From the IMG/VR virus record IMGVR_UViG_3300036806_000173, positions 1 through 42,250 of that record: 42,250 bases of DNA; one strand, given 5' to 3'. Below the pieces are notes generated by a model that was not told the DNA's origin, did no database searches, and saw only the letters and a list, made by a program, of their open reading frames with translations. Source of the stretch: a virus. This document shows positions 406 through 33,792 of this stretch, piece by piece. Numbering within the stretch: position 1 is the stretch's first letter; each line of letters opens with the position of its first letter. Both the position numbers and the translations under genes were made by a program.

Positions 406-416
406 GAATAGAACGG
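406..416 (-). promoter_or_regulatory. CCGTTCTATTC element, copy 1
   Basis: Exact copy of the 11-bp element on the minus strand, lying between the stop of the 71-residue protein (420) and the GNAT-like gene, whose ATG follows immediately. If it is a promoter, the transcript would be leaderless or nearly so. Function is inferred from recurrence and position only. Confidence 0.55.
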
Positions 417-419
417 TTT

Positions 420-635
420 TTACTTGCCCTCGAGAGCTGCGATGCGCGCGAGTGCGGCTTCGAGGGCCGCCTGTGTCGCGGCGTGCTGTGCGGCGAGTTG
501 CCCGTAAGCCGTGTTGACGTCATCAAACATTGCGGCGATCAGGTGGCCGTGAATTGCGCCCTGAGGCCCGACGGTCTTCAGGTTCCGGAGCCAGTTCAAA
601 TTTTTCAGATTGATATTCGCGTTTTGCTGCGCCAC
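420..635 (-). CDS. Small hypothetical virion-associated protein
   Basis: A 71-residue protein with a GTG start at 635, three bases after the stop of the giant tail protein. The C-terminal half is an Ala/Gln-rich helix (AAQHAATQAALEAALARIAA) likely to form a coiled coil. The N-terminal half (NLNWLRNLKTVGPQGAIHG) is not recognised. Its place behind the nozzle-like protein suggests a small structural or assembly factor, but no family is recognised. Confidence 0.7.
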   Translation of the reverse strand: MAQQNANINLKNLNWLRNLKTVGPQGAIHGHLIAAMFDDVNTAYGQLAAQHAATQAALEAALARIAALEGK

Positions 636-638
636 GAC

Positions 639-3600
639 TCACCCCCCGAAGACGGTCCCGCGAATTGGGAACACGAGATCCTTCCGGCCGCTCACGTTCA
701 TCTGCGAAAACGCGAACGCCTTTTTGTTGCTCGGATAAGCAGCCGTCGCCTCGAGCCGATACGCGCACCGATTGCCCTTTGTGATCGGATGAAACTCCAA
801 ATCAAAGCCGGGATCCTGCAGCGAGAGCGTCGTCAGCGGGAGCGGATCTTGAATCTTCGAGAGCGCATCGATGATCGGCGAGATCTTCACTTTGCCGACG
901 CCGGTCGCGTGGATGGAGAGGAAATTGAAAATCTTCCGGAAGTTCCCGACGATCGGTTGCTGCTCGGCTTCCTTTTGAAAGAAGAATGCCGTCGTGTAAA
1001 ACGCATCGATCGGCCCGTAGTCCGCGTCGACGCAATTCCAATCGGTAACATCGTTGTCCAGCGGCCAATAGTTCGCCATGTCGAGCATGTACAGATTCCC
1101 GAAGCCAGGCGCAGCGCCCGGCGCCTGTCCATTCCCGCCTCCGAATACGATCGTTTTCGCGATGCCCGTCGGGAGCGGCCGCTTGACCATCGCCGCGCAA
1201 TTTATGGGGAGCTGCCAGGGCGACCATCGCCGGCCCAAATCTGTGACGATCATCTTTCCCGAGTACTGCGAAACGTGGATCGGATCCGGCACGTTGTAGG
1301 CCGTGTCGTTCAGCCGATAGCTCATTTGCAGCATGAGGCTCGGCATCCCCGCGTCGCCGATCGGGATCCCGCAAAAGATCAGACGGTCGACGGTATCGTT
1401 CGCGAGCCAAATCGTCGTTTGCGCGTCCCAGTTGATCGATTCCCAAGTCTTCGCGAATTCCTGGGAAATCTTTTTCGCCGTCGGATCTCCGGTGAATTCC
1501 CGGATCCCATATCGCCCGGCCCAAAGCGCGAATTCCTCGCCGAAGTCGACGGCGTTCGGGCCGGAGCATCCGCACACGCCGACATACTGAATCACGTTCC
1601 ATGTCGACGGCTCGCCAGTGCCGTTGTTCTGCGATTGAAAAAGCGATTCGTCGGAATTGAGGTAGAGATAGCCGCGCTGCCGGAAAGCCGCGGTAATGTT
1701 CTCGGAAGGATCGAGGGCCAAGATCCCGCTGATCGCATCGAAGCCGAAAGGATTCTGGGAATAGCTCACGCGCGCCTGATCGAAGGAAACGGGCTGATTC
1801 TGCGGAATGAATTCGAGCTCGTCGATCGTGACAGTTCCGCCGGCGACCGTGTCGAGCAGATAAACCTCGAGGATCGCGTCGGTCGGAATTACGGCGACGG
1901 GAGTTTGCACGAAATTCTTCACAATCCAGTCGAGGCCCGTCGTGCTCAGTTGAGTCAGCAGGAAAGTCGCGGAGGCAATGATCCCTCCGCCCGAAGCGGA
2001 ATAGAGATCGACGACGACGGATCCGGTTTTGTCGGAAGAGTCGCAACGCGCCTTCATTCGCACGTTGTACGTGATGTTCGGTGAAAAGATTGGCCCGCCG
2101 TAGAAGTCAGTCGACGCGCCTTGCTGCAGGTGATTATTGAATCCGGTCTTCATGCGGTACGCGAAGCCGAACTCGGTTTGATCCTGGGAATAGGCAACGA
2201 GCGTCCCTTCGCTATCGCCCTGGGAAGCGTCCCATCCGAGCGGGATCGCGCCAACGGGACTGAAAACACTGAACGGCACGATTCCGTAAGGCATTCCCCC
2301 TGGGCCGACCAAAGTCAGCGACGTATCGGATCCGACGCCGGCGATTGTGTACGTCGTGCCGTCGATCATGATTTGCGCGTCTGCCCATTCAGCCTCAAAA
2401 AGCGCGCCCGATTGCCACGTCACAGTTGATCCGGAAACGGAACACGTTCCACTCGGAGGCTCATAGCCGCCGTCGAAGCCGGGATTGATCAGGTTTTTGA
2501 TGTTGTTTATTTCGCCCCACCAGGCCATGCGGCCCTCGTACTCGATCACGCCGAGGCACGGTGCGAGCACGACCTGATTAAAGAGATTGTTTCCAGTGAC
2601 ATCGATTTGCGTTCCTGCGATGAGTTGCGCGTCGTTGAAGTCGAGAGCGATCGATGTCGAAGTATTGTTTTCGATCACCGTTCCCGTCGCCGCAATGATG
2701 CTTTGATTCGCCCCAGGCAAAAGCCCCGTCGGCGTGATGTAGTAAAAGTTGGCACCCGCGGCCGGCGTGAAGGCGATTATCCGGCGCGCAGTTCCAGCCG
2801 GCCCGATCGCGACGTTACTCGCGAGCAAAAGATTCGTCCCGCCAAGCGTCGTAAGCTGAATTGGAATCGATGGAGCGGTGAGCGCGCCGTCGGCGGATGC
2901 AAAGATCAGAACTCCCGAGCGTTGGCCGCCCTGGATCTGGCCGATGATTTGAGCGATCGCGGTTCCACCCGTTGAACTGATTGAGGTATCCGGGCCGAAC
3001 TGGAAAAACTGAATAAAGAAGCCGTATGTCGCGTCGAATCCGCTCGCGATGATTTGCGCTGCATTTCCGTCGGTGCCGCCCGTCGGGCTCCATTGCTGAT
3101 AAACCGTGCCGCCCGCCCCTGAAGACACAGCCGTCGAGGCCGGAACCTGGTAGCAGAAAACCGTCGTTCCCCCGGAGGCGCTCACGACGCGCGTCACAGT
3201 TTGAAATCCGATCGGGAAGTCGCTCGTATCGGTCGCGGAAATGTATAGAACGGTCCCGACGGCAAGATTTGTGAGCTGCGTTGAGATCGTCACCGTCACC
3301 AGGCCGGAGACGTCGCGGGAAATCGTGGTGATATTCCAGTTCGGCCCATTGATTTGCGAGCCGTCGGAATTCTCGAATTTCGTCCAGAATCCGGGCGTGA
3401 AGTTGACGGGTTGCGTCGCCCCGAAATAGAGCGTAACGATGTTTTTTGCCCGCGCGATGTTGTAGCTACCCGATGGGCCCGTTCCCGTTCCGGAAAGGCC
3501 TGTCCCGCTGTAAAAAGTGTAGCTATTGAAACCGACCTTGAACGTGTTTCCCGAAATTGAAATCACTACGCTCGTCTGATCGGCCGGAATTCCGCATCCC

Positions 3601-4292: not shown

Positions 4293-4310
4293 TTATGCTC
4301 GACTCGCGAT

Positions 4311-5081
4311 TCACCGTCTTCGCCCTCGTCCGGAGCCGCGGCCTCGGAATGGGATGCGTTGATAGGAAGCGTAGGCTTCCTTGCGCGCCGTGCGGTTTAT
4401 GATCGCCGCCTTCGCTTTGATCGCGCGTTTCTCGAAATCGGTCGCCATTTCCAGGCCGCCGAGCATCGCGGACACTTCGGAAACGAGCTGGCAAGCTAAA
4501 AAAGTCTGTGAATGCAAAATATAAATCAGCGAGGCTCCATCCACTACATCCGCGAACGAAGCCACGTATTTGATCTTTAGGTCGTTCGTTTGCGATGCAC
4601 CCGGAAGGATCAGTTTGTCGCCCTGGAAATCCCAAATCCGGAAGCGCCCTGTCGTCGGCCTCGAGGAAATCGAGTCGGCCGCCTGTACCATTGGAACCCA
4701 TGCCTGCTGCCCGGAAATGCACTCCCACAATTCGAGCGGCTTGATCATGTCCAAAGGAAGCGTGACGCCGCTATCGACCAAATTGAATCCGTAAGTGTAG
4801 CCGGTAAAAGAGACGGTAACATTGATTCGCGGATTGTCGAACGCCGTCGGCTCGAGGCCCAGGAGAAAGCCGTACTTATTCATGATTTCCGAGCTTCCGG
4901 AGATTAGTTCGTCTTGAAGATCTCGATAGATCTTCGTGAGCATGGGAAAGACGTAGGGTTGCGTCGACGCGAGAATGTCGCCGGCGAGGCCGTTCTCGGT
5001 TGCCGCGTCGGCGGAGATCGAGCGGGCAAGTTCGAGGATGTAGTCCGCTGTGTCGTACGGAGTGCTCGGAGCGGTTGTCAT
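4311..5081 (-). CDS. Head-tail adaptor protein (phage adaptor family)
   Basis: A 256-residue protein. The N-terminal helices (YDTADYILELARSISAD) and the following DLQDELISGSSEIMNKYGF region match the style of podovirus adaptor proteins that sit between portal and nozzle. The middle is beta-rich and the C-terminus ends in a strongly basic Arg/Gly tail (RGRGSGRGRRR). It lies directly upstream of the nozzle-like gene, which supports a T7 gp11-like role in closing the connector. The CCGTTCTATTC element sits seven bases before the ATG, so this gene may begin a transcription unit. Confidence 0.65.
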   Translation of the reverse strand: MTTAPSTPYDTADYILELARSISADAATENGLAGDILASTQPYVFPMLTKIYRDLQDELISGSSEIMNKYGFLLGLEPTAFDNPRINVTVSFTGYTYGFNLVDSGVTLPLDMIKPLELWECISGQQAWVPMVQAADSISSRPTTGRFRIWDFQGDKLILPGASQTNDLKIKYVASFADVVDGASLIYILHSQTFLACQLVSEVSAMLGGLEMATDFEKRAIKAKAAIINRTARKEAYASYQRIPFRGRGSGRGRRR

Positions 5082-5088
5082 TTCCCAA

Positions 5089-5099
5089 GAATAGAACGG
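5089..5099 (-). promoter_or_regulatory. CCGTTCTATTC element, copy 2
   Basis: Exact copy in the 23-base gap between the 65-residue protein and the adaptor gene, seven bases before the adaptor start. No convincing -35 hexamer is visible upstream; the flanking sequence is the end of a coding region. Confidence 0.55.
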
Positions 5100-5104
5100 C
5101 TTCG

Positions 5105-5302: not shown

Positions 5303-5303
5303 T

Positions 5304-7133: not shown

Positions 7134-7144
7134 GGATAGAACGT
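7134..7144 (-). promoter_or_regulatory. Variant element ACGTTCTATCC next to a palindrome
   Basis: Near copy of the CCGTTCTATTC element (two mismatches). It runs into a perfect 12-bp palindrome, TCCCTGCAGGGA at 7125-7136, that could be an operator. It lies 98 bases upstream of the Acb2-like start. Confidence 0.4.
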
Positions 7145-7230: not shown

Positions 7231-7241
7231 GAATAGAACGG
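7231..7241 (-). promoter_or_regulatory. CCGTTCTATTC element, copy 3
   Basis: Exact copy placed directly after the GC-rich hairpin that follows the capsid gene; the first bases of the element belong to the stem base. This arrangement could be a terminator for capsid mRNA followed at once by a new start. Confidence 0.5.
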
Positions 7242-7268
7242 CCCGCGAGCTCATAACTCGCGGGCCGT
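7238..7268 (-). terminator. GC-rich 12-bp hairpin after the capsid gene
   Basis: The arms ACGGCCCGCGAG and CTCGCGGGCCGT form a perfect 12-bp stem with a 7-base loop. On the minus strand it is followed by TCTATTC in place of a clean T tract, so termination may be partial. It could equally stabilise the 3' end of the abundant capsid mRNA. Confidence 0.55.
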
Positions 7269-7319: not shown

Positions 7320-8690
7320 TTAGAAGCCGCTCGGGAGCGCGAGGGTATCGATGTAAGCCCCGCCGCGCGGTTTGTTGTTCGCGAGTTGCAAGCCGGTGAC
7401 GAAGTAGAACGCGCTGGTTGGCGCGACGCCTCCGTCTGAGCCGTAGAGCGGGAACACCGTCACTCCGTCGACGTCATAGAGCGCCGCGGGCTTCGTCTCG
7501 ATGCGGAACCAGTATTTCAGCGAGAGGAAGTCGAGGCGCGACGGCCGCGATTTGATGTTCGCGATCACTTCATGGCCGGCGATGGTCTTGATCCGATTCC
7601 GCTTCAGGTAATCCATGCGGGTATCGGATCCCTTGCCGGCGCCTTCCTGGGGAACGAAGGCCGTCGCGACTCCGGAAGTCGTGAACAGGCCGAGCGATTC
7701 CCAGGCCGTGATTTGGTCGACGTTGCAGGTGAGGACGAATTCGTCCATTTCCTCGGCGTCGATTCCGTTCGCGCGCTGCACGAGGGATTCGAGCAGCATA
7801 ACCATTTGCGGAGTGAGCGCGTCGCTCGCGCCGTTCACATACTCGGCGTTGAGCACGCCGGGATACGTGGTGCGCGGGATCCCGAACCACGTTCCCGTTG
7901 AGCTGTACACATTGATCGCCGGCACGCCGTTGAGCGACGCCGCGATCGTTGCGCTGGTGTAGCGATCGGGAGCATAGCTTCCGGTCGCGTCGCCCGAAGC
8001 GCCGCTCACGATCAGGACGTCGCCCGCCGTGGTGCCCTGCGGATAGAAATAGCCGCCGATCGCGATGGTGTAAACGATGTTGTTCGCGAGATCGGCTGTC
8101 AGGATTTGGATACTGCCGCGGTTGGTTCCACCGATCGAGGAAAGCACCTGGTAGAGCGAGCCGGCGCGCAGGTTATTCGCATTCGACACCTGCAGGTAAT
8201 TTTGCGCGTTCGAGGCGGACGGTGTGACGGTGACAGTCGCGATGTCGCCGGCGCCGGAGCTCGACGCGCACAGGCCGTCGAGGTTCGTGCGGAACTCGCG
8301 CAAGTTCGTCTTGAATTCTTCCTTGAACACGTTGACGAGCGCTTTTTCCTCGCCGTCGGTCGCCCACTCGGCCTCCTTCGTCACTTGGCACGATTGCACG
8401 AAGTAAACCGGAGTTGCGACGCCTTCGTCGTACACCGAGCCTCCGCCGACTCCCATCGAGTCGCCGGTGCCGTCGGGCACGAATTGCGCGAAGGGCGCGC
8501 CCGGCTGAACGAGCAGCGGGATGCGGCACAAGCGCGCGGAAACCTTGAGATCGTTCCGGACAGGGATGCGCGTCAGGAAAATATCGTCCTGGTTGAACTG
8601 CGCGTAGACGTTGTCTTTGAGCTTTTCCATTTCCACGCCGATTGCGGCCGCGGAATTCAGGGGAGTACTGGAATCAAGAGCGCCGGCCAT
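7320..8690 (-). CDS. Major capsid protein (HK97 fold, N4/phiKMV-like type)
   Basis: A 456-residue protein. A charged helical N-arm (VEMEKLKDNVYAQFNQDDIF) is followed by a beta-rich body and a spine-helix region (EEMDEFVLTCNVDQITAWE). The C-terminus has the strand pattern DFLSLKYWFRIETKPAALYDV, typical of HK97-fold capsid proteins; I count this as inference from style, length and position. The ATG at 8690 is preferred over a GTG six bases earlier because GAGGT lies six bases upstream of it. A 143-base leader with the CCGTTCTATTC element and a hairpin precedes it, and a strong hairpin follows. It is the probable client of the phage chaperonin. Confidence 0.7.
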   Translation of the reverse strand: MAGALDSSTPLNSAAAIGVEMEKLKDNVYAQFNQDDIFLTRIPVRNDLKVSARLCRIPLLVQPGAPFAQFVPDGTGDSMGVGGGSVYDEGVATPVYFVQSCQVTKEAEWATDGEEKALVNVFKEEFKTNLREFRTNLDGLCASSSGAGDIATVTVTPSASNAQNYLQVSNANNLRAGSLYQVLSSIGGTNRGSIQILTADLANNIVYTIAIGGYFYPQGTTAGDVLIVSGASGDATGSYAPDRYTSATIAASLNGVPAINVYSSTGTWFGIPRTTYPGVLNAEYVNGASDALTPQMVMLLESLVQRANGIDAEEMDEFVLTCNVDQITAWESLGLFTTSGVATAFVPQEGAGKGSDTRMDYLKRNRIKTIAGHEVIANIKSRPSRLDFLSLKYWFRIETKPAALYDVDGVTVFPLYGSDGGVAPTSAFYFVTGLQLANNKPRGGAYIDTLALPSGF

Positions 8691-8760
8691 AAACACACCT
8701 CACATGAGATTGAATTTCGCTCATCTGAGATCGACCGTGCTCTGGTTTGCCGGTGAGGGC

Positions 8761-8776
8761 TCGGGACAGTTCCCGA
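8761..8776 (-). promoter_or_regulatory. Leader hairpin of the capsid mRNA
   Basis: TCGGGA and TCCCGA form a 6-bp stem with a 4-base loop in the untranslated leader of the capsid gene, about 30 bases downstream of the CCGTTCTATTC element. It could stabilise the 5' end of the mRNA. Nothing else recognisable lies in 8691-8833 except the ribosome binding site. Confidence 0.4.
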
Positions 8777-8807
8777 AGTTGGTCAATCGCGGAATCGCTT
8801 ACAGGGG

Positions 8808-8818
8808 GAATAGAACGG
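8808..8818 (-). promoter_or_regulatory. CCGTTCTATTC element, copy 4 (capsid)
   Basis: Exact copy between the tail-fibre stop (8834) and the capsid start (8690). It is the only promoter-like sequence in this gap and precedes the gene expected to be the most highly expressed, which is the best positional support for a late-promoter role. Confidence 0.6.
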
Positions 8819-14545: not shown

Positions 14546-14974
14546 TCACAGTGCGGTAATTTTTCCGATCGCCGTGCAGGCTCCCGTCACAGCGGAAGCG
14601 TACAGGCGGAAAAAGCGGAAATTGGATGCGACGGTCTCAACAAATTCGGTCGTGCCGCTCGCTGTGTCGACCTGAACGTAATCTTCCTCGACATCGTCGA
14701 TCGCGCCCTGCAGCACCCAGGCGACGGCGCTCGGAGCTGTGCCGTACTTCACTTGCCAGGTGATTTGTCGTTGCGGGTAGCCGCGGTATCCGGTTTGCGG
14801 AGCGACCGAAACGGCGACCGACTTAAATCCGGAGGCGACGGCTTCATATTGCTCGTTCTGCAGCGCCGCGGGCCCGTCGGGGATCGCCTTGAAGCCGACG
14901 GCGTGCGCGTTCTGGCCGGGATAGATCGACTTCGACGGAGTTTCGTTGTTGTTTGCTTGCAGATAAGGCGGCAC
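14546..14974 (-). CDS. Putative virion structural protein (decoration or head protein)
   Basis: A 142-residue protein. The GTG at 14974 is chosen because AAGGAG lies seven bases upstream and it begins just after the upstream stop; a longer read would overlap a whole gene. The sequence is beta-rich with few charges (QITWQVKYGTAPSAVAWVLQG, SNFRFFRLYASAVTG) and resembles small head- or tail-surface proteins. It lies immediately upstream of the portal. No family is named. Confidence 0.6.
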   Translation of the reverse strand: MPPYLQANNNETPSKSIYPGQNAHAVGFKAIPDGPAALQNEQYEAVASGFKSVAVSVAPQTGYRGYPQRQITWQVKYGTAPSAVAWVLQGAIDDVEEDYVQVDTASGTTEFVETVASNFRFFRLYASAVTGACTAIGKITAL

Positions 14975-14987
14975 GCTTCGCTCCTTA

Positions 14988-15251
14988 CTAAACTGCCAAT
15001 TCGCCGTATACCGGATCAATGGCAACACTGCAGACGCCATGAGTTTTTTTGCCATCGGTGAAATTCGCGTGTCCTGATGCGGCGATCCGTACAACTCCAT
15101 TTCCGCCGACATTTTGAGAAAGGAGAATTTCGAGAGCAGGCTTTGCATCATCGAATTCCTGTTTCGATTGCCCAGTCAATCGCGAGCTTTCCGCGTTCAG
15201 CTTTTCGATGATCTTGTCAGGCTTGCCGACGTACTGAATGCTCCAACTCAT
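14988..15251 (-). CDS. Small hypothetical protein
   Basis: An 87-residue protein that starts MSWSIQYVGKPDKIIEKLN, with a helix containing SRLTGQSKQEFDDAKPALEILL and a beta hairpin with VVRIAASGHANF. Its start overlaps the previous gene by 35 bases. The alpha/beta pattern is seen in many phage proteins of unknown function next to portal genes. No motif is recognised. Confidence 0.65.
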   Translation of the reverse strand: MSWSIQYVGKPDKIIEKLNAESSRLTGQSKQEFDDAKPALEILLSQNVGGNGVVRIAASGHANFTDGKKTHGVCSVAIDPVYGELAV

Positions 15252-15387
15252 GTTTTTTCTCAACTTTCTTTGGCAATTTCTTGCCCTTGCTCGCTTCGTC
15301 CCATTCGGAGACATTCACTCCGAGCTTTTCGAGCTCGGCCTTGTGCTCATGAAAATAAGCGGCCTGCGCCTTTGATTTGTACGGCAT
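15217..15387 (-). CDS. Small conserved phage protein (MPYKSKAQ type)
   Basis: A 56-residue basic protein read from the sequence: it begins MPYKSKAQAAYFHEHK and continues GVNVSEWDEASKGKKLPKK. This N-terminal pattern (MP-KSKAQ-AYFH, then VSEWD-ASKGKKLP) recurs in small phage proteins encoded beside structural genes; the function is unknown. The start overlaps the previous stop as TAATG (15387-15389) and the stop is at 15217. Confidence 0.7.
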   Translation of the reverse strand: MPYKSKAQAAYFHEHKAELEKLGVNVSEWDEASKGKKLPKKVEKKHELEHSVRRQA

Positions 15388-15842
15388 TACTCGCCGCCGT
15401 ATTCACCGAGGCCCATGTCCTGCAGGCCGCCCGCGCCTTCATTTTCAGAACCTTCTCCCGCGTCTGTTTTTCCCTCATCACCCCCCTCGCTATCACCTGC
15501 AGCGATCTTCATGTGTTCCGCGGCGTGCGCGACGGAGGGATGCCCTTTGGAAGTGTGCTCGTGGCCGTCTTCGTGAGTCGTTTTGACCGTGTGATGCGCG
15601 CCCTCTTGCTTCATTTCGGAGGTCGTTGCCGGGCCGTGCTCGGCGACGACGGAGTGAATGACTTCGTGGGATCCGGCCTCGCCGGCGTGATCGTGCATCG
15701 AGGTTTTGCCGCCGTCTTCGCCCTTCGGCGCGCTTGCGGCCTTGTCGGAGGAATCCTTCGCGGCTTTGTCCTGGGCCATGCGGTGACGAGCGAGGCCGCG
15801 GCCGACGCTCGACGTGCCCATGTGCTTCCCATTTATTTCCAC
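15387..15842 (-). CDS. Histidine- and Glu-rich, low-complexity protein
   Basis: A 151-residue hydrophilic protein with an unusual content of His, Glu, Gly, Ser and Lys (HDHAGEAGSHEVIHSVVAEHG, HHTVKTTHEDGHEHTSKGHP). It has no membrane helix or fold-like hydrophobic pattern, so it is probably disordered. Repeated His pairs could bind metal. It sits in the block of small genes between terminase and portal, where head-assembly accessory proteins are often found. The role is unknown. Confidence 0.65.
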   Translation of the reverse strand: MEINGKHMGTSSVGRGLARHRMAQDKAAKDSSDKAASAPKGEDGGKTSMHDHAGEAGSHEVIHSVVAEHGPATTSEMKQEGAHHTVKTTHEDGHEHTSKGHPSVAHAAEHMKIAAGDSEGGDEGKTDAGEGSENEGAGGLQDMGLGEYGGE

Positions 15843-15844: not shown

Positions 15845-16117
15845 TTACCCCTCCGATTCGGGTGTCGGCACCGATGCGACCGGTTTGTTTTCGAGTTCAG
15901 TGATGCGCGCTTCGAGTTCGCCGAATCGATCGTTCAAGCTGTCGAACTTATCGACCATTTCCTCGTGCATTTGCTGGAAATCATCCGAGATCTGTTTGGC
16001 GATTTTCTTCAGGCTCGCGCTCTTGAAATCTTCGGGAGAGAATTGCGGTTCCGGAGCTGCCGGAGGCGTTGCCGCTGGAATCTTGCGCCCCCTGGTATCG
16101 GTGATTCGGTCACTCAC
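15845..16117 (-). CDS. Small coiled-coil protein
   Basis: A 90-residue protein. After a Pro/Ala-rich N-terminal arm comes a helix with heptad-like spacing (FQQMHEEMVDKFDSLNDRFG, then ELEARITELENK). It overlaps the upstream gene by 8 bases. A copy of the CCGTTCTATTC element lies inside the upstream gene, 160 bases before this start. Likely an oligomeric accessory protein; function not recognised. Confidence 0.6.
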   Translation of the reverse strand: MSDRITDTRGRKIPAATPPAAPEPQFSPEDFKSASLKKIAKQISDDFQQMHEEMVDKFDSLNDRFGELEARITELENKPVASVPTPESEG

Positions 16118-16505
16118 TGGCTTCCTCCGTCTTCGGCTCGGTGATCGCCGCGCTTTTTTTTACTTTGTCGATGAAAACTGAACTTCGCGCCGCCTGCTCT
16201 CGCGCTCGCTTGCGCGCCGACCAAGGAACATGCCCGGGCATCGCGTTGAGCTCTTCCGGCTTCGGCTGTTCACCGGGAATAGAACGGGAGGCGACGTCCT
16301 GGGCTTTCAAAAGTTCGTCGAGCTTCTCTTCTATGGCCCCGAGCGACGAATCAATTAGCTCGAGTTTGCCTTTCAACATCTCGGCTTTGAATTCTACTTT
16401 CACGAGGCGCTCTTCGACACTATTTCGCAGCTGATCGAGCTTGATCGCCGTTTGCGCGGCGAGATCGTCGACGAGCTTTTGCGGATCCGGTTTCGGTTTA
16501 AACAT
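16110..16505 (-). CDS. Coiled-coil protein with basic C-terminal part
   Basis: A 131-residue protein. The first 70 residues form a long amphipathic helix (DDLAAQTAIKLDQLRNSVEE, KLELIDSSLGAIEEKLDELL) and the remainder is basic (WSARKRAREQAARSS). It overlaps the Tat-signal gene by 8 bases. It could be a head-assembly or scaffold-type accessory, but there is no recognised family. It contains an embedded CCGTTCTATTC copy at 16277-16287. Confidence 0.6.
   Translation of the reverse strand: MFKPKPDPQKLVDDLAAQTAIKLDQLRNSVEERLVKVEFKAEMLKGKLELIDSSLGAIEEKLDELLKAQDVASRSIPGEQPKPEELNAMPGHVPWSARKRAREQAARSSVFIDKVKKSAAITEPKTEEASE
16277..16287 (-). promoter_or_regulatory. CCGTTCTATTC element, copy 5 (inside a gene)
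   Basis: Exact copy on the minus strand within the coiled-coil gene, at a point where it encodes RSIPG. It may serve the downstream small genes and the portal. Being inside a gene it could also be coincidental, but an exact 11-mer by chance is unlikely. Confidence 0.4.
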
Positions 16506-17022: not shown

Positions 17023-18705
17023 TCAATGCCTCCGCGGTTTGAAGCGCCGGGCCGAAGTGTAGAACGGCGCCGTCGTCTTCGCATCCTCGGCCTTCGCCTT
17101 CATGTGCGCGATGTAGCGACTCGAGCCGACGATCGGCAAATTCTTGAGCGTTTCCTTGAGTACTTCCTCTTTCGGCTTTTCCTCGGGCCGGATCCTCGAG
17201 GCGAGAGCGTATCGCGTGCCGTCCAAAACGTCGAGCATCGGTGAGTCGCCCTCTTTTTCGATGTCGCCGTCGTGGCCTGGTTGCCGGCTTGCCAGGGCCC
17301 AGGGCAACGCCTCGAAGACGTGCGAGAGTTCGTCGTCGATCAGCCAGTTACAAACCGTCGAGCCGTCCTCGAGCTCGTTGAGAACGACGTTCTCTTCCTC
17401 GTCGCGATCGCCCAGGAGCGAATATATGAGCGTCCAGCCGTTCACGCGATCGGAATAGGCCGCCGTCATTCGCGGCATTCCGTTTGCGACGAAGACGTCG
17501 CTCATGCGATGCCCGCGCGAGAGGCGATCGGTGCCGAGATCCGGCGAGGCGTAGATCTTGTCGATGCGCTTTTTTTCGTTCTCGGGAGTTTGATCCGCGA
17601 CTTCCTGGGCGAGCGCGCTCTCGGAAATTCCTTTGATCAGCAGCTCACGAAACGTGACGGGAAAAGTTTTGACGTGTCCGCTCTTCAGTTTGAGCTCGAT
17701 GAACGTGTTCCAGCTCACATAGGCGTGATGGACTTTCCCCCAATCCAGGCCGAGAAAAATCGGTTGCCAATGCTGCTTAGACATCGCGCGAACGATCGCG
17801 TCGTGGGAGATCGCGATGTTCAGGTATTCGTAATTATCGAAGAATTGGCCCTCGAAGCCGCTCCACTTTCCGTAAAGCCAGGCGTCCCGGATCCGCCGCG
17901 GTTGCGATTGCAGCATTTTGCGATAGGCCCGGCCGGCCGGTGTGTCGGCCGCATATGCCGGGTTATCGTCGATGAAAGTTTGAATGAAGAGAAATTCCTC
18001 GGGCGAGTAGCTTTCGGGATCCTCGCCGGTCGGGACGCTCTTCTCGATGTCACAGCCGAACAGGTGATTCAAAACGTCGCCGCCGTAGCCGCCTGGATTC
18101 GTCGCGCCCTTCACCTGGGCGATGATCGGCTTTCCAAGTACGTTGAGGCTTTCGGTCCAGCGAACTGAGCCGGCGATAAACTTCCACTCGGAGTAGGGCC
18201 ACTCCGACCACTCATCGAAATGCGCGCATAGGAACTCGCCGGATAGAGTCTTGCGAACGGCCTTCAGGTTTGCGGCCGAGCCGAAACGGATGATCGAGCC
18301 GTTCGGGAATTCGCAGCGCTCGAACGACAGCTCGCCGATGTATCGCCCGCGGAGGCCTTCAGGGAGCGACTTGAATCGATCGATGATCGTCGCTTTGAGC
18401 TCGCCCATCGTTCGCCGGAAAATGATTTGCCTCGAGCCGGGAACCAGGTACGCCTTGAAGATCGCGTCAAAAATTATGGCTTCCGTTTTTCCGGGCCCAC
18501 GCGCGCCACCAAAGAGAACGTATGGTTCTTCCGCGTCAAAATATCGAATCTGTTTGGGGTGAGGGTGGAAAATGCAGGAGCGGGTTCCATCTTCATGGTT
18601 TTCGTAGACAGAGAATCGAGTGCCGTGAAACTCGCTTCCCAATGCCAGCGTACACGCGGACTCATGCCCGCGCGAGCCCTGAAAATCAATTAGGAAACTG
18701 GGCAT
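17023..18705 (-). CDS. Terminase large subunit
   Basis: A 560-residue packaging motor with ATPase and nuclease domains. The Walker A motif GGARGPGKT is at about residues 66-74 and the Walker B region FLCAHFDEW near residue 155. The C-terminal RNase H-like nuclease shows LGLDWGKVHHAY (first acidic residue) and IYASPDLGTDRL, with a late acidic segment near MLDVLDGTRYAL. It cuts concatemers and drives DNA into the prohead through the portal. The first 20 bases overlap the stop region of the GIY-YIG gene, which separates it from the terminase small-subunit candidate. Confidence 0.9.
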   Translation of the reverse strand: MPSFLIDFQGSRGHESACTLALGSEFHGTRFSVYENHEDGTRSCIFHPHPKQIRYFDAEEPYVLFGGARGPGKTEAIIFDAIFKAYLVPGSRQIIFRRTMGELKATIIDRFKSLPEGLRGRYIGELSFERCEFPNGSIIRFGSAANLKAVRKTLSGEFLCAHFDEWSEWPYSEWKFIAGSVRWTESLNVLGKPIIAQVKGATNPGGYGGDVLNHLFGCDIEKSVPTGEDPESYSPEEFLFIQTFIDDNPAYAADTPAGRAYRKMLQSQPRRIRDAWLYGKWSGFEGQFFDNYEYLNIAISHDAIVRAMSKQHWQPIFLGLDWGKVHHAYVSWNTFIELKLKSGHVKTFPVTFRELLIKGISESALAQEVADQTPENEKKRIDKIYASPDLGTDRLSRGHRMSDVFVANGMPRMTAAYSDRVNGWTLIYSLLGDRDEEENVVLNELEDGSTVCNWLIDDELSHVFEALPWALASRQPGHDGDIEKEGDSPMLDVLDGTRYALASRIRPEEKPKEEVLKETLKNLPIVGSSRYIAHMKAKAEDAKTTAPFYTSARRFKPRRH

Positions 18706-21522: not shown

Positions 21523-22391
21523 GCGCTCACGCTCCGCGGCACGTTCGGGAAGGCGTCAAAGATCGCATCCTCGAGCACGATTTGCGCCTCAAATCCGAGC
21601 TGCTCACGCGCTGGCTCGGCATCGCTGATAAGCGCCTGAGCGTCGCCCGGGCGCGGATCCGTGTACTCGATCGGGACCGAGAGCATTTTCGCGATCTCGT
21701 TCATTGACGTTTGCCGGCCGGTGCAGACATCGAGTGTGCAGCAAACGACCTCGGATTTCAGGGCGATGTCGAAAGCACGCGCAACGTCGCGCGCGTGTAC
21801 CCAATCTCGGGTTTGCGTGCCGTTTCCGCTGATATGAAAGCAGCGGTCGCGCTTATACGATTCATCGAGGCCCGCGAAGGCGCAAAGCTGGTGTTCGATG
21901 CGGGATTGCCCGGCGCCGTAAATGTTCGACGGCCGAAGGCCCATGCAGGGAACGCCGAGCTCACCGTAAAACTGAACCTCGAGCTCGGCGGCGAGTTTGG
22001 TCGCTTTGTAGATCGTGAACTGATCGCTCAAAACGATATTCGAGCTGCAGACGATGACGCGCTTCACGATGTCGGGGTGATCCTTCGCGATTTTGAGCAC
22101 GTTGCGCGTGCCGTGAACATTCACGCGCCACGCCTCGGAAGGGAAATCCCGGCAAGACAGGTTCCGGCCGTATGCGGCCAGGTGCGCGATGTGCGAGAAG
22201 CCGCGTTCGAGAATTGCTCTTTCGAGCGAACGATAATCAGCGACATCGCATTCGATGTGCGCCCTTGTGGGATTAGATCGAGAAAGGCTTCCTCCGCAAT
22301 GCGGATCGAGATTGTCGAGCGCCCAACCGTCGGTCTGCTCGATGACGTGACGGCCTGCGAATCCTAGCCCCCCGGTTACGCAAACTTTCAT
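21519..22391 (-). CDS. NAD-dependent nucleotide-sugar epimerase/dehydratase
   Basis: A 290-residue extended short-chain dehydrogenase. The N-terminus MKVCVTGGLGFAGRHVIE gives the TGG-GF-G NAD-binding loop; the catalytic YxxxK is YKATK and the preceding SS (VCSSNIVLS) supplies the Ser. GLRPSNIYGAGQ is the usual substrate-loop motif, and TRDWVHARDVARAF is typical of UDP-glucose 4-epimerase relatives. It acts on a nucleotide sugar and probably feeds the neighbouring glycosyltransferase. It overlaps the HNH gene as ATGA. Confidence 0.85.
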   Translation of the reverse strand: MKVCVTGGLGFAGRHVIEQTDGWALDNLDPHCGGSLSRSNPTRAHIECDVADYRSLERAILERGFSHIAHLAAYGRNLSCRDFPSEAWRVNVHGTRNVLKIAKDHPDIVKRVIVCSSNIVLSDQFTIYKATKLAAELEVQFYGELGVPCMGLRPSNIYGAGQSRIEHQLCAFAGLDESYKRDRCFHISGNGTQTRDWVHARDVARAFDIALKSEVVCCTLDVCTGRQTSMNEIAKMLSVPIEYTDPRPGDAQALISDAEPAREQLGFEAQIVLEDAIFDAFPNVPRSVSA

Positions 22392-22876
22392 CGCCTTCCC
22401 TCCGCGTAAGCTTTTTTCAGTCCCAGCGAAATCTTAATTCCTTTTTCGGGATCAGAAGGCATCCCATGAAAGCACTTTTGCGAGCAGTACCTTGTGTCAC
22501 GGTGGCGAATTCTCCATTCAGGCACATTGAACAGCTCCCCGCAATTTAGGCACGTAAGATCGATTCCGTGCTTCTTGTGATGGAGTCGGGTGTGCTCTCC
22601 ATGCGCGAGCACTTGTAGATTCTCGAAATGATCATCGAGACGAATTTCGTTTAGGTGGTGAAGATTTGTGTTTACCGGATGGCACATCCCAGTTCTTAGC
22701 CACCAAACGACATGCGCTCTTAGCGCGTATCCAGATTTGAAGGCTCGTGGGCAGTCGGGCCGATAGACGCGGAATCGTCCTTTGTTGTCGATCCATCCAT
22801 CATCCCATCGATCTGGCATCCAGATTTCATGATTACGCTGGAATGTTCCGTCGCTTTTGCGGTCGAAGTGTCGCAT
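22388..22876 (-). CDS. HNH homing endonuclease with zinc finger
   Basis: A 162-residue protein. The core NTNLHHLNEIRLDDHFENLQ, followed by HGEHTRLHH, is the HNH pattern of free-standing phage endonucleases (HH...N...NL...EH...H). The C-terminal CLNCGELFNVPEWRIRH and YCSQKC provide a four-Cys zinc finger for DNA binding. It lies between the sigma-like gene and the sugar-modification genes and likely entered as a mobile gene. A near copy of the CCGTTCTATTC element lies 16 bases upstream of its start. Confidence 0.85.
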   Translation of the reverse strand: MRHFDRKSDGTFQRNHEIWMPDRWDDGWIDNKGRFRVYRPDCPRAFKSGYALRAHVVWWLRTGMCHPVNTNLHHLNEIRLDDHFENLQVLAHGEHTRLHHKKHGIDLTCLNCGELFNVPEWRIRHRDTRYCSQKCFHGMPSDPEKGIKISLGLKKAYAEGRR

Positions 22877-22891: not shown

Positions 22892-22902
22892 GAAAAGAAC
22901 GC
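22892..22902 (-). promoter_or_regulatory. Variant element GCGTTCTTTTC
   Basis: Near copy (two mismatches) of the CCGTTCTATTC element, in the 43-base gap between the sigma-like gene and the HNH gene and 16 bases before the HNH start. Weaker than the five exact copies, but oriented the same way. Confidence 0.35.
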
Positions 22903-22919: not shown

Positions 22920-23489
22920 TCACAGGCCGGCGTCGGTCCTGTTCAGGCCCATCGAATTTTGCAGCTTAAAAATCGCCTGCTTACGCTTCATGCTCACCCA
23001 GGATTTAGAGCGGCCGACGCGAATCGCGATCGACGTGTCGCTGAATTCTCCGAAGCCTTCGAGGCCATACGTCATTCCGAGAACTATGCGCTCGGGAGAC
23101 GAAAGGCAATCGAGATTCTGCAGGGCCCGCGGGAGATCTGCTTTGCCGTTCAGGTGAGGCTCGAGCGGAGGCGGAGCGTCGATCATTGCCAGGCCCTCGC
23201 CTCCGCGAAGCAATCCCATGCGGATCTCGGGCTCGTGTTTGATCGTCCGCGCGATCAGATCGCGGATTTGCGTTTTCAGGATTATCGAGATTCCCTTCGG
23301 GTTGCGGTAGGACGGGCGCGCCTTGAAGATCACGAGCAGAAGGCTTTGAACTAGATCTTGCGTCTGTTCTCGCGTGAGTTTGAACGCCTTCGCATATTTC
23401 CCGGCGATGTACTTCGCCAAATTGCCGTACCGTTCGAGCAAGATTTCGTTTGAGGCCTTCAGACGTCGGCCGTACAAGGGAGCCGGCAT
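22920..23489 (-). CDS. Sigma-70-like transcription factor
   Basis: A 189-residue protein. Residues of about 15-85 resemble sigma region 2 (LLERYGNLAKYIAGKYAKAF, then EQTQDLVQSLLLVIFKARPS), where DLVQ is the usual core-binding signature. Residues of about 128-182 resemble region 4: LSSPERIVLGMTYGLEG followed by a helix-turn-helix SDTSIAIRVGRSKSWVSMKR and QAIFKLQ. It would direct host RNA polymerase to phage promoters. It has no region 1 or recognisable region 3. It lies upstream of the packaging and structural genes, as expected for a middle-to-late switch. An unrelated helix-turn-helix regulator is the alternative. Confidence 0.7.
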   Translation of the reverse strand: MPAPLYGRRLKASNEILLERYGNLAKYIAGKYAKAFKLTREQTQDLVQSLLLVIFKARPSYRNPKGISIILKTQIRDLIARTIKHEPEIRMGLLRGGEGLAMIDAPPPLEPHLNGKADLPRALQNLDCLSSPERIVLGMTYGLEGFGEFSDTSIAIRVGRSKSWVSMKRKQAIFKLQNSMGLNRTDAGL

Positions 23490-27633: not shown

Positions 27634-27721
27634 GTTCGCCTCCTGGGGGTTCCGTCCCATCAATCTGGGCCTGACATTCGGCAACCCGCTCGGTTCTTTT
27701 CGTTCTTCGCCTTAGGTGGTT

Positions 27722-27871: not shown

Positions 27872-27887
27872 TACCGCAAATTCAATC

Positions 27888-29454: not shown

Positions 29455-29704
29455 AAAATTCCCCCTTTGGAATCGCTGTACAGTGCCGAAAGCCAGCGAA
29501 CTTTCCGCCGGCGATCACAAGTTCCCCGAGTTCGCCTTCGCTGTCAAAGTAGAAAAGCCGACGTGATCCGATGTCGGGCGCGAGCCGCTTCACGACGTTC
29601 TCGGCATCGTTGGTGACGGTTGGAAATAAATCCCAGGGCCCGAGATCACGCAAAAGAATGTGTCCCGGGCCCACTTCGAGGATCCGATACATTGCGGAGC
29701 ACAT
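29435..29704 (-). CDS. Small hypothetical phage protein
   Basis: An 89-residue beta-rich protein (YRILEVGPGHILLRDLGPWD, then TVTNDAENVVKRL and SRRLFYFDSEGELGEL). The start overlaps the upstream stop as TAATG. The pattern with a conserved DLGPWD looks familiar from early regions of other phages, but I cannot attach a function. Confidence 0.65.
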   Translation of the reverse strand: MCSAMYRILEVGPGHILLRDLGPWDLFPTVTNDAENVVKRLAPDIGSRRLFYFDSEGELGELVIAGGKFAGFRHCTAIPKGEFYAADKM

Positions 29705-30513: not shown

Positions 30514-30568
30514 GTATTTCCTCCATTTAGTTTGAATCGGGCGAGGTTTGCGGCCTCGCCCGGCAACT

Positions 30569-31105
30569 CTATACCAAACCTTGCTTCGTTTTCCACTGTG
30601 CCACGCGAACACATGCGAGCGCGTCCGCGAGATCACTTCCCCACTCGATCAGCGGGAAATTCTTCATTGAGTACGAGCCGTCGGCCTTCAGCCGCACGGC
30701 TGAACGATGCCACCAGAGATCGGGATTAAGCAAGAATCCGCCAAGCGCGAGCTGTAGGCCAACAGCCTCACCGATCACTCCGGTTTTGAAGTCGACGATC
30801 GTCTTTTTTCCTTTCAGCAGCCCGGCGCGATCGATCCGCCCGCGGAGCCGGTGATCCTTCGACTGAACTTTTTTCTCGACTTCCTGAACAATGAAGCCAG
30901 TTTCCGCGAGAAATTTTTTATGCGCGTGCAGGTAGCCGCGGAGCTCGTCCGGAACGAGCGGCTCGTGCAGGCGCCGGAGATCATAGAGTTCGATCATCTT
31001 GTGAACCTCCGAGCCCTTCCAGAGCGCTTCCTCGTCGACGAAATCGAAATTCGTCGCGCCGGCGAGGGCGAGGGCCCGGGTGATTCCCATATACTCGATC
31101 TTCAT
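30569..31105 (-). CDS. RecB/Cas4-like PD-(D/E)XK exonuclease
   Basis: A 178-residue protein. The PD-(D/E)XK core is visible as GRIDRAG (Asp), TIVDFKTG (D-x-K) and LQLALGGFLL (QxxxY-like helix), the order seen in RecB-family and Cas4-like nucleases. An upstream helix with KGSEVHKMIE carries the conserved His. It probably resects double-stranded ends so that RecT can load. It overlaps the ribbon-helix-helix gene as ATGA. Confidence 0.8.
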   Translation of the reverse strand: MKIEYMGITRALALAGATNFDFVDEEALWKGSEVHKMIELYDLRRLHEPLVPDELRGYLHAHKKFLAETGFIVQEVEKKVQSKDHRLRGRIDRAGLLKGKKTIVDFKTGVIGEAVGLQLALGGFLLNPDLWWHRSAVRLKADGSYSMKNFPLIEWGSDLADALACVRVAQWKTKQGLV

Positions 31106-31266
31106 TTCGGTTCCGGCAACGCAGGTACGATCTGCATTGCCACTTTGAGAGCGAGCACGGCGAAGGCTTCGAGAGACATATCGCGAGCCGCCGCTTCCAC
31201 TTTCAGCCGGCGATTGAGCTCAACCGGAAAATTGCGAATGCTGAACGTGATCGTTTTCTTAGGCAT
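31102..31266 (-). CDS. Ribbon-helix-helix (Arc/CopG-like) DNA-binding protein
   Basis: A 54-residue protein starting at ATG 31266. KTITFSIRNFPVELNRRLK gives the N-terminal beta strand and first helix, and RDMSLEAFAVLALKVAMQ the turn and second helix, of the MetJ/Arc fold. It would act as a dimer on palindromic operators. The nested inverted repeats at 31675-31735, upstream of the same operon, are a plausible target. It overlaps its two neighbours by 8 and 4 bases. Confidence 0.75.
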   Translation of the reverse strand: MPKKTITFSIRNFPVELNRRLKVEAAARDMSLEAFAVLALKVAMQIVPALPEPK

Positions 31267-31411
31267 TTTTGACCTCGGTTTTGAGTTCCGCCGATTCGAG
31301 AGCGACGGGCAACTGGCAATGTCTGCAAGGCTCCGTATATTTCTCCGGTGATTCCTTGCGTCCTGACAGCAAGCGCCCACACATCGGGCATCGTATGTCG
31401 CTAAGCGTCAT
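31259..31411 (-). CDS. Com-like small zinc finger protein
   Basis: A 50-residue protein starting at ATG 31411. IRCPMCGRLLSGRKES and EPCRHCQLPVALE give two C-x2-C knuckles in the order and spacing of the Mu Com translational regulator, although the second half is shorter. In phage Mu, Com activates mom mRNA translation. Here no mom-like gene was seen, so the target is unknown. Joined to both neighbours by short overlaps. Confidence 0.6.
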   Translation of the reverse strand: MTLSDIRCPMCGRLLSGRKESPEKYTEPCRHCQLPVALESAELKTEVKNA

Positions 31412-31662
31412 CGCGAGCCCCCTTCCAGGTTCGCGACGTGAAGCGGCGCAAGGATCCGGGCCGCCTCTTCGATGTCCTGGGCCGACGGGATATAGTAAAA
31501 AGGCATCTGCGCGCAGGTTAGAAAACGCATATAGCATCGCTTTCCGGTGAAGTTCAGATCTTTGTCGGCGTGGCGAATCGTTTCGGATCCGCATGAAGGG
31601 CAAGGGATTTTACGGATTGAAAGAGCCAGATCTTCGGCGCGATTCTCATTTGCGGTGAGCAT
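31408..31662 (-). CDS. Zinc-finger hypothetical protein
   Basis: An 84-residue protein; ATG 31662 is chosen because GGAGGAAAT lies upstream. IPCPSCGSETIRHADK contains C-x2-C, and the later KRCYMRFLTCAQMPFYYIP supplies two more Cys. It heads the operon of small regulators and recombination genes and lies next to the nested inverted repeats. Possibly a DNA- or RNA-binding regulator; no family recognised. Confidence 0.65.
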   Translation of the reverse strand: MLTANENRAEDLALSIRKIPCPSCGSETIRHADKDLNFTGKRCYMRFLTCAQMPFYYIPSAQDIEEAARILAPLHVANLEGGSR

Positions 31663-31674
31663 CGGGTATTTCCT

Positions 31675-31735
31675 CCAAAGACAGTGTCTCATAGCTTGCT
31701 ATGCAATACAAGCGTACAAAAGTACTGTCTTTTGG
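31675..31735. promoter_or_regulatory. Nested inverted repeats, candidate operator/promoter
   Basis: In the 95-base gap between lysozyme and the regulator operon an outer inverted repeat (CCAAAGACAGT at 31675-31685 with ACTGTCTTTTGG at 31724-31735, one base bulged) encloses two smaller ones: CATAGCTTGCTATG (31690-31703) and GTACAAAAGTAC (31714-31725). The region is AT-rich compared with its surroundings. It may be an operator bound by the ribbon-helix-helix protein, or in part a terminator for the lysozyme-side genes. Confidence 0.55.
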
Positions 31736-31757
31736 CTAGTACCAGAGGCCTACGGGT

Positions 31758-32186
31758 TTATTGCCAGATTCCGGTGCGGATCTGCAGAGCGAGGCGCTTT
31801 GCCCGAACACCGACTTGCCGAGCCCAAAGCGAGCCGAGCATTTCGTCGGATGCCTCGTCCCAGTTCCCTTTCGCGATCGCCGAGAGCATGAGCGGGAACT
31901 TCTCGAGGCCGCCAAAGCCCAAGTTAAAAGACATGTTCACGAGGACGTCTTGCCGAGCGGGATCCAGGGCGGAAAAGTACGGAAGGCGGGAAGTGAGCTG
32001 ATTTCTGACACGGTCGACGTCATTTTTGAGCAGGAAGGCGATCTCTTCGGGCGACAGGCCGGCGTCGGTCAAATTGCGGCCGACGCCGATCGTTATTTTG
32101 CCGACGGTGTCGAGATAAGGAAAAGATCTGGTTCCCTCGTCCCGGGCAAGCTGCTCGAGGATGTCCAAATTATTCCCCGAAATCAT
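31758..32186 (-). CDS. Endolysin, T4-type lysozyme (GH24)
   Basis: A 142-residue muramidase that cuts peptidoglycan between MurNAc and GlcNAc. The catalytic triad is visible as E17 (RDEGTRSFPYLD), D26 and T32 (KITIGVGRNLT), with the same spacing as E11, D20 and T26 of T4 lysozyme. It has no signal peptide, so it needs a holin to reach the wall; several small membrane proteins upstream are candidates. It overlaps the upstream gene by 17 bases. Confidence 0.92.
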   Translation of the reverse strand: MISGNNLDILEQLARDEGTRSFPYLDTVGKITIGVGRNLTDAGLSPEEIAFLLKNDVDRVRNQLTSRLPYFSALDPARQDVLVNMSFNLGFGGLEKFPLMLSAIAKGNWDEASDEMLGSLWARQVGVRAKRLALQIRTGIWQ

Positions 32187-32568
32187 TGAGGATTTTCACC
32201 AGAGCCGATCCGAAGGCCGCGGCGTCGGCCTGGAATTGCTCCGGCGAAACAATGAGCTTGCTGTGCCCAGGAAGATTCGAGGCGGCCCAAAGCTGCAGTT
32301 CCTTCGCGATCAAGGGCGTCGCCGCAGCGATCTTTGCTGATCCGGTCGGAGCTGCGCCGGCCACGGCCGGGAACATTGCTTCCGCGGTCGCTACGATGCC
32401 GGCGAACGAGTTCAAATCGCCGGCAACGGTCTGAACCTGGGCGCCAAGCCTTCCCGGGATCATGCCGAGTAATTGGCTTACAAAGGGAAAGCCGAGAACC
32501 TTTGTCACATCCTCGCCGGCCGTCGCCAGAACGATTCCGATTTTCTTCAGTACGCTAGTTGCGCTCAT
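32170..32568 (-). CDS. Hypothetical protein of the lysis cassette
   Basis: A 132-residue protein starting at ATG 32568 with AAAGGAA upstream. It is helical and Ala-rich, with amphipathic segments (ATSVLKKIGIVLATAGEDVT, GFPFVSQLLGMIPGRLG) but no clear membrane helix. Such proteins often accompany phage holin and endolysin genes. Its 3' end overlaps the lysozyme start. Confidence 0.6.
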   Translation of the reverse strand: MSATSVLKKIGIVLATAGEDVTKVLGFPFVSQLLGMIPGRLGAQVQTVAGDLNSFAGIVATAEAMFPAVAGAAPTGSAKIAAATPLIAKELQLWAASNLPGHSKLIVSPEQFQADAAAFGSALVKILNDFGE

Positions 32569-32582
32569 GTATTCCTTTCGTT

Positions 32583-32744
32583 TTATCGTTTCAGAATGTT
32601 GACCAAAGCCGCGTCGCCGAGCAGGAAGCAAAGCAGGCCCACCCAAAAAGCGATGCGCCCGATCTCGACGAGTTTCGGATTCTGTGCGAGTGCATACATC
32701 AAAACGCCGATCACGGAAACGAGCAAACTCAGGTAGATGATCAT
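32583..32744 (-). CDS. Small two-helix membrane protein, holin candidate
   Basis: A 53-residue protein, ATG 32744 with GGAGGG upstream. Two membrane helices (IIYLSLLVSVIGVLMYALA and GRIAFWVGLLCFLLGDAAL) are separated by a short loop NPKLVEI. The size and hairpin topology fit class II-like holins. It sits in the lysis cassette, so pore formation for the lysozyme is the natural proposal. Confidence 0.6.
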   Translation of the reverse strand: MIIYLSLLVSVIGVLMYALAQNPKLVEIGRIAFWVGLLCFLLGDAALVNILKR

Positions 32745-32764
32745 GGGAACCCTCCGCTCGGAGT

Positions 32765-33151
32765 TTACGCGCCTTTTGCCTCGGTGGGCGCATCGATTGC
32801 CGGCGGAACGGAATGATTCAGCCCGGGAATGAAGGCGAGAGCCGAGTCGAAAAGATAGCCGGCCATGAAGGCGACGGGCGCGCCGACGTGCAGATCGATC
32901 ATGCCGGCGGCCCATGTCGGGACCGTGATCTTCGCTGCAGAGAGCACGGCGACGAGCTCACCTTCGAGCCAAAGAGCAAAAATGGCGAACGACCAGGCGA
33001 GGCGAATGATAATCGTCGACCAGCGCGCCGACAGGATCTCGAGGCGCGAATCAGGCCCGACAGCGGAGCGCGCGATCGCATCGATCTGCGCGAGCGTATG
33101 AAAAGCGGATCCGACCAGGAAAAAACAAACGGCCAAGATAAGCGTGTGCAT
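32765..33151 (-). CDS. Membrane protein of the lysis cassette, holin candidate
   Basis: A 128-residue protein with three or four probable membrane helices (LILAVCFFLVGSAFHTLA, IIIRLAWSFAIFALWLEG, and a later APVAFMAGYLFDSALAFIPG). A GGAGGGAAT site precedes the ATG. It could be the main holin or a helper to the two-helix protein downstream. No family is named. Confidence 0.55.
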   Translation of the reverse strand: MHTLILAVCFFLVGSAFHTLAQIDAIARSAVGPDSRLEILSARWSTIIIRLAWSFAIFALWLEGELVAVLSAAKITVPTWAAGMIDLHVGAPVAFMAGYLFDSALAFIPGLNHSVPPAIDAPTEAKGA

Positions 33152-33424
33152 CTATTCCCTCCATACCTCTTCGCGGATTCGAGTCGCGATGCGTTTTCTC
33201 TTCTCGTCAGTGTCGGCGACCTCAATGTCGTCTGCAAGCTGAAGCATCCATCGACGTTCCGCCCGGGTACTGTTCTTTCGGACAAGGCCCGCCAAGCCGT
33301 CGGCCCATTGCTTCGTTTGGCGTTTCGATTCGTCGAGCTGCTCGGATGTCCTTCCGGCTTTGTAGATCAGGCCGGCAATGGTGAGCAGAAACGTCGCGAT
33401 CAAAATGATCTCGGTGACGTTCAT
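33152..33424 (-). CDS. Single-helix membrane protein, possible i-spanin-like
   Basis: A 90-residue protein with one N-terminal membrane helix (VTEIILIATFLLTIAGLIY) followed by a charged helical domain (TSEQLDESKRQTKQWADGLA). This topology resembles inner-membrane spanins, but no outer-membrane partner with a lipobox was found nearby. It overlaps the upstream gene as ATGA. Part of the lysis cassette by position. Confidence 0.45.
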   Translation of the reverse strand: MNVTEIILIATFLLTIAGLIYKAGRTSEQLDESKRQTKQWADGLAGLVRKNSTRAERRWMLQLADDIEVADTDEKRKRIATRIREEVWRE

Positions 33425-33702
33425 CGTTTTTTCGGATTCAGCTCTTCTTCGATCATGGAAATTGCGTTGCGAAGTTCTACGCCTCTCGTGAACAGGTGAA
33501 GTGTGCGCGCCTCGGTCGCCGCGGCCGTGCTCGCCATGAATTCGTTTTCTTCGGCGCGCGCGCGTAGCTCGATCAATTCAATGTGACGTCGAAAAGCTTT
33601 TTCAAAATCCCAGGTTCCGGGCAAATGATCTCTGGTTTCCCGCACGACGTTCGCCGCAATCGTCGAAAGGATGTGCGGCTGTACTCTTTGTTGTTCCAGC
33701 AT
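33421..33702 (-). CDS. Hypothetical helical protein, first gene of the lysis-side operon
   Basis: A 93-residue soluble, helical protein (DFEKAFRRHIELIELRARAE, then ARTLHLFTRGVELRNAISM). It is the first gene downstream of the divergent regulatory gap 33703-33792, where a TCGTTCTATTC element lies 24 bases before the ATG. No family recognised. Confidence 0.6.
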   Translation of the reverse strand: MLEQQRVQPHILSTIAANVVRETRDHLPGTWDFEKAFRRHIELIELRARAEENEFMASTAAATEARTLHLFTRGVELRNAISMIEEELNPKKR

Positions 33703-33792
33703 CAGGGCCCCTATGTCTTTCTTGTGAATAGAACGAGATTGGTATAGGCTTCCGCTCGCACGTCCTTACTCTCTTGTTCGAGGTGAAAGAGA
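33703..33792. promoter_or_regulatory. Divergent regulatory gap between lysis-side and chaperonin operons
   Basis: The only divergent gene pair in the genome flanks this 90-base gap. It carries a minus-strand element at 33726-33736. On the plus strand a weak sigma-70-like pair is present, TTGTGA at 33722-33727 and TATAGG at 33743-33748, with a short 15-base spacer. The two overlap, so use of one could block the other. The ribosome binding site GAGG for the plus-strand operon is at 33780-33783. Confidence 0.45.
33726..33736 (-). promoter_or_regulatory. Near copy TCGTTCTATTC upstream of the lysis-side genes
   Basis: One mismatch to the CCGTTCTATTC element, in the divergent gap and reading toward the lysis genes. 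Lysis genes are expected to be late, which agrees with a late-promoter role. Confidence 0.5.

Follow-up and report, generated by a model that had tools for sequence, protein, structure and literature searches.

The late promoters of phage T4 consist of a -10 element alone, TATAAATA, served by the small phage sigma factor gp55, which lacks region 4, and they depend on the sliding clamp. The sigma factor gp36 of phage phiEco32, reported to be without region 4, uses a single element, tAATGTAtA, in middle and late promoters, with transcription starting 6-8 bp downstream (PMC8948821). In Salmonella phage 7-11, which is related to phiEco32, promoters occupy similar genome positions with another consensus, and the late promoters of its sigma factor gp47 are bipartite, GTAAtg-16-aCTA (PMC8948821). 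ECF sigma factors read the -10 element in the sigma 2.3-2.4 region, and in M. tuberculosis sigma-H, where the -10 core is GTT (G-11 T-10 T-9), a specificity loop reads a flipped -10 base (PMC6411747).

The element described here, CCGTTCTATTC, is very probably the core sequence by which host RNA polymerase, equipped with the phage's own ECF-like sigma factor, recognises a set of promoters, and the system is best read as one of the phiEco32/7-11 kind. As in phiEco32, a phage-encoded sigma is found with one conserved element of ~9 bp and no -35, elements stand before middle and late genes at several places, and transcription would start a few bases downstream. The system is set apart by a region 4 kept without a -35 (all five sigma factors here match region 4 weakly, whereas gp36 is reported to have none), by four motif classes in one family that are all single-element, unlike the bipartite promoters of 7-11, and by elements placed against start codons, many of them at 4-7 nt; the element sequence also differs from that of phiEco32. 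Likeness to ECF promoters such as those of sigma-H lies in the GTT of the -10 core and in a probably two-domain sigma whose specificity loop would read the element, but ECF sigma factors need a stringent, GGAAC-like -35 that is missing here, and the conserved bases reach well beyond GTT. With T4 late promoters the system shares a -10-only arrangement and a small phage sigma, although the sequence is unrelated and gp55 differs in region 4.

The window, meaning the whole analysed stretch of 42,250 nucleotides, has ends that are identical over 127 bp (1-127 and 42124-42250), and because of this direct repeat the record is a complete, closed phage genome of about 42.1 kb. Since 127 bp is a common assembler k-mer length and a 127-bp end repeat also occurs in one relative (G3), the repeat is probably an assembly overlap rather than a biological terminal repeat. 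Turned round so that terL reads on the plus strand, the window (W) shares its gene order with three 45-kb IMG/VR contigs, G1 (3300005529_000237), G2 (3300041955_000279) and G3 (3300047471_000357), to which its terL is 60-63% and its probable capsid protein ~80% identical. A second tier, with capsid protein identity of 59%, consists of G7 (3300029951_000412), G8 (3300028806_000133), which is 99.8% identical to G7 over most of its length, and G9 (3300050045_000012), a 34-kb fragment (L039/L040); a further relative, L023, is an 8.3-kb fragment, and L025 and L026, from a 30%-identical tier, were too short for motif discovery. Queries of IMG/VR with the capsid protein or the sigma factor returned no relatives beyond those listed, a terL query added one moderately close fragment only (L049), and no relatives were found in bacterial and archaeal genomes. 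Among isolated phages, no DNA-level match was found for the first 25 kb of the window and no protein-level match for the one window protein searched. The capsid label draws on conservation and a weak family match, because the predicted structure (pLDDT 32) is unusable. In G2 the capsid gene (L024; G2 about 14646-15481) seems to be broken some 30 codons in by a ~0.8-kb insertion, possibly an intron, for which Rfam gave no intron match. A divergent operon on the plus strand of the window (33793-38301) encodes GroEL (phrog_5725), a PAPS-reductase-like protein and a conserved 469-aa protein with no family match; its orientation is opposite to that of the other genes in W, G1, G2 and G3 and the same as theirs in G7 and G9.

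Table 1. Elements (P1-P7) and associated genes, in window coordinates
Feature	Position	Strand	Remarks
P1, 1 mismatch, before replication/recombination cluster	33726..33736	-	counterparts G1 12028, G2 38819, G3 12768
Phage sigma factor gene, 189 aa, sigma2-linker-sigma4	22920..23489	-	TIGR02937 E 1.8e-8, full length
P2, variant GCGTTCTTTTC, before HNH gene and epimerase	22892..22902	-	exact motif at matching G2 place (2829)
Terminase large subunit, late-gene landmark	17023..18705	-	phrog_2 E 2.5e-28
P3, exact copy, within ORF 16110-16505	16277..16287	-	kept in relatives though encoded residues differ
P4, exact copy, capsid gene start ~120 nt downstream	8808..8818	-	6/6 phages + L023; G9 variant GATACTATTA
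Untranslated leader, P4 to capsid gene	8697..8807	-	possible conserved fold, TGACC/GGTCA closing stem
Probable major capsid protein gene	7320..8696	-	~80% identical in relatives; weak match to NCBIfam capsid_maj_Podo, E 5.8e-4
P5a, exact copy, downstream of capsid gene	7231..7241	-	counterparts G2 16859, L023 8044, G7 21669
P5b, CGTTCTATCC variant, 11 nt before an ATG	7134..7144	-	less well supported; in tandem with P5a
P6, exact copy, 7 nt upstream of the gene 4311-5081 ATG	5089..5099	-	same gap in 6/6 phages
P7, exact copy, adjoins ATG of GNAT-like gene (1-405)	406..416	-	adjoins ATG in W, G1, G2, G3 with phage-specific motif

The five exact copies of the 11-base element reported in the sequence-only reading lie where it had placed them, all on the minus strand and with none on the plus strand, against a second-order expectation of 0.01; the shorter CGTTCTAT occurs 8 times on the minus strand (0.30 expected) and not at all on the plus strand (0.17 expected). 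The three near copies that it had added fare differently: that at 33726 has a single mismatch, whereas those at 7134 and 22892 are present but differ at two of 11 positions, a level at which matches alone are what chance would give (21 found with up to two mismatches, 12.9 expected). The 7134 and 22892 copies gain support from the elements that relatives have at orthologous places, and only from these; a genome-wide pattern drawn from two-mismatch matches alone was rejected. A further one-mismatch copy, at 3243, lies inside the tail gene, is not conserved and is probably chance. Placement in short gaps before late operons, as first described, holds for most copies, but the copy at 16277 is inside an ORF, and those at 33726 and 22892 precede replication-side and sugar/HNH genes. 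The HNH endonuclease gene (22388-22876), which lies between P2 and the epimerase gene in W and is absent there in G2, is consistent with a homing insertion.

Across the family the places of the element are fixed and its letters change. Elements recur upstream of the replication-side cluster and of the sugar-epimerase genes, downstream of terL, on either side of the capsid gene (on the upstream side at ~105-160 nt), ahead of a later structural gene and at the GNAT-like gene. Three relatives (G2, G3 and L023) use CGTTCTAT[TC] at the same places as W, and at these places G1 carries GTTATATT or GTTATGTT (class GTTATRTT), G7 has GATTAYTCC and G9 has GATACTTTA. On the late strand CGTTCTATY occurs 7 times in W (0.20 expected), 8 in G2 (0.30), 5 in G3 (0.29) and 3 in L023 (0.06), and the other classes are likewise enriched in their own genomes, GTTATRTT with 4 copies in G1 (0.36), GATTAYTCC with 5 in G7 (0.15) and GATACTTTA with 5 in G9 (0.06); enrichment of a class is confined to the late strand of the genome or genomes to which it belongs, and genomes of the other classes nearly lack it. 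When one mismatch is allowed, six of six phages have a copy of their own motif between terL and the portal gene, between the portal gene and the MCP gene and in the gap that precedes gene 4311-5081, the G9 portal-MCP match closest to the capsid gene being the variant GATACTATTA. The gap before gene 4311-5081 is often shorter than 30 nt, and in G2, G3 and G9 the distance from element to start codon is exactly 14 nt. The sequence-only reading had held that relatives lacking the motif but retaining the operon layout would speak against it, and on its face G1, G7 and G9 are such relatives; yet at those places each is enriched in a motif of its own, so that they support the promoter idea.

At the in-frame site P3, each phage retains its own motif and the codons change, the covered residues being RSIP in W and G2, RSII in L023, SYVD in G1 and DYS in G7. 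The element appears to act as DNA, not as protein or RNA. Read by eye, sites in G1, G2 and G7 follow directly on terminator-like hairpins that carry a T run, and in G2 two sites stand back to back between divergent genes. In the window P5a is preceded by a hairpin at about 7242-7264. Just after the capsid gene of G9, a terminator-like hairpin, CCTCCTGC-GATACTTTAT-CGCAGGAGG-TTTTCTTTTT, has a copy of GATACTTTA in its loop (late strand, 15743).

The candidate reader of the element is the phage sigma factor, which matches the sigma-70/ECF family TIGR02937 over its full length. Homologues with sigma region 2 and/or 4 are present in W, G1, G2, G3 and G7, and none was found in the 34-kb fragment of G9, which shows the motif pattern. 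Sigma70_r4 matches all five homologues weakly (best E 0.001), and the Pfam sigma matches are below curated cut-offs. The apparent sigma2/sigma4 architecture of the W protein fits that of ECF (group IV) sigma factors, which have these two domains but neither sigma1.1 nor sigma3, and the structures nearest to its low-confidence model (pLDDT 63) are ECF sigma factors such as M. tuberculosis sigma-L. Overall identity among the W, G1, G2 and G3 proteins is even (37-43%), and residues 60-78 are 63-95% identical among W, G2 and G3, which have CGTTCTAT in common, and 32-37% identical to G1; between G2 and G3 these residues are 95% identical in proteins that are 37% identical overall. Thirteen columns are identical in W, G2 and G3 but different in G1, and seven of them cluster in residues 65-76 (P 2e-6; about 2e-4 after scanning correction), as against 1, 0 and 0 columns there for the other three-versus-one splits. 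Residues 65-76, the predicted -10-reading loop, are the segment that best separates the motif-sharing phages from G1, and they align with sigma regions 2.3-2.4 of FliA. Motif class thus appears to track the -10-reading segment across four sequences with one discordant member, and the correlation, which was used to find neither the sigma nor the motif, links the two. Among the options first offered, the best supported is that of a promoter core read by the phage sigma: sigma-bearing relatives keep elements at the same places, and the element differs where the -10-reading segment differs.

That there is no common -35 box, as the sequence-only reading had stated, is borne out by a fixed-offset k-mer test against random sets. 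In 26 aligned sites strong conservation is limited to the 9-bp core, no upstream column is strongly conserved, and no 5- or 6-mer at a fixed distance upstream exceeds random sets in any motif class. A -35 at fixed or jittered spacing was rejected for every class on the same comparison, and an ECF GGAAC box at one G2 site (2829) was rejected for want of recurrence. The sigma keeps region 4, the normal reader of a -35, yet no -35 is found, which counts against the sigma reading. The distance from the element to many start codons is only 4-7 nt, which suggests leaderless or nearly leaderless mRNAs. Of the 26 sites, 22 have a purine at index 12, a count that is uncorrected for the number of columns and only suggestive of the start site. 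A possible fold of the capsid leader in W, with counterparts in G1, G2, G3 and L023, is not claimed, since covariation is weak (three of 15 pairs, one sequence each); Rfam gave no match in the window or in the relatives' loci, the capsid leader included.

The GNAT-like gene, so called from a reading of its sequence and with no family match found for its product, presents a further difficulty. With the element adjoining its ATG in four phages, the expected start site would fall 0-2 nt inside the gene, which counts against the promoter reading. Either initiation would be shifted upstream by about 2 nt to give a leaderless AUG, or the promoter would serve the next gene, and translation of the GNAT-like gene would begin by coupling to the stop codon upstream. 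A leaderless start at an out-of-frame AUG, located at +5 in the gene, was considered and dropped, since G3 does not conserve it as an open frame.

The element could instead bind another phage late activator that aids host RNA polymerase with host sigma, since any phage-encoded DNA-binding regulator would give like placement and turnover, and the spacing at the GNAT-like gene is odd for a -10 element. This is improbable, because a distance of 4-7 nt to many start codons leaves too little room for an upstream activator site, host-type -10/-35 sequences were not found beside the element (sigma-70-type matches are not above chance), and the motif class follows the -10-reading segment of the sigma. 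A role in RNA, as a processing site or a translation-control site, would fit the frequent position of the element directly before start codons without a Shine-Dalgarno sequence; such a role is a little less probable still, as it fails to explain why copies also stand inside a coding region, 105-160 nt ahead of the capsid gene, directly after terminators and, in G2, as a divergent pair. RNA processing or a separate late regulator, the other options raised at the outset, thus explains less than a sigma promoter.

Promoters of a T7-kind single-subunit RNA polymerase also place their core very near the presumed start and have no -35. No RNA polymerase family match was obtained, however, for 30 larger window proteins against PHROGs or for protein subsets against Pfam and NCBIfam, and a conserved sigma gene is present instead, so that this origin is very improbable. 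Least probable, to the point of being negligible, is a chance repeat or shared coding context, which the chance level of two-mismatch near copies might suggest; it is already refuted by the comparative data, with five exact copies where 0.01 were expected and places conserved, independently of codons, across seven contigs.

If the element is a promoter for the phage sigma, early transcription by host sigma would presumably lead to synthesis of the phage sigma, whose domain 2 would recognise and melt CGTTCTATT, the 9-bp core, as a -10-type element that has no -35 beside it. Transcription would then start a few bases downstream of the core on the minus strand, and about eight such promoters would yield successive transcription units. 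Units whose start codon follows the element by 4-7 nt would give leaderless or nearly leaderless mRNAs, and the capsid gene would instead receive a leader of ~100 nt. Across the phage family the promoter places would stay fixed, and the element sequence would shift together with the -10-reading loop of the sigma. The evidence somewhat favors a broader view, in which one phage family kept its promoter places while the core was rewritten three times or more, in concert with a short stretch of the -10-reading loop, and in which the sigma, despite its region 4, needs no -35 and gives rise to many leaderless structural mRNAs.

The element provides a regulatory map for an uncultured phage family without a match among the isolated phages searched. 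Four promoter classes and five sigma sequences form a compact set in which to see how a sigma and all its promoters change specificity together. The correlation between the sigma loop and the -10 element predicts that a swap of about 12-19 residues should swap the promoter class, and orthogonal pairs of sigma and promoter that work without a -35 would serve as expression tools.
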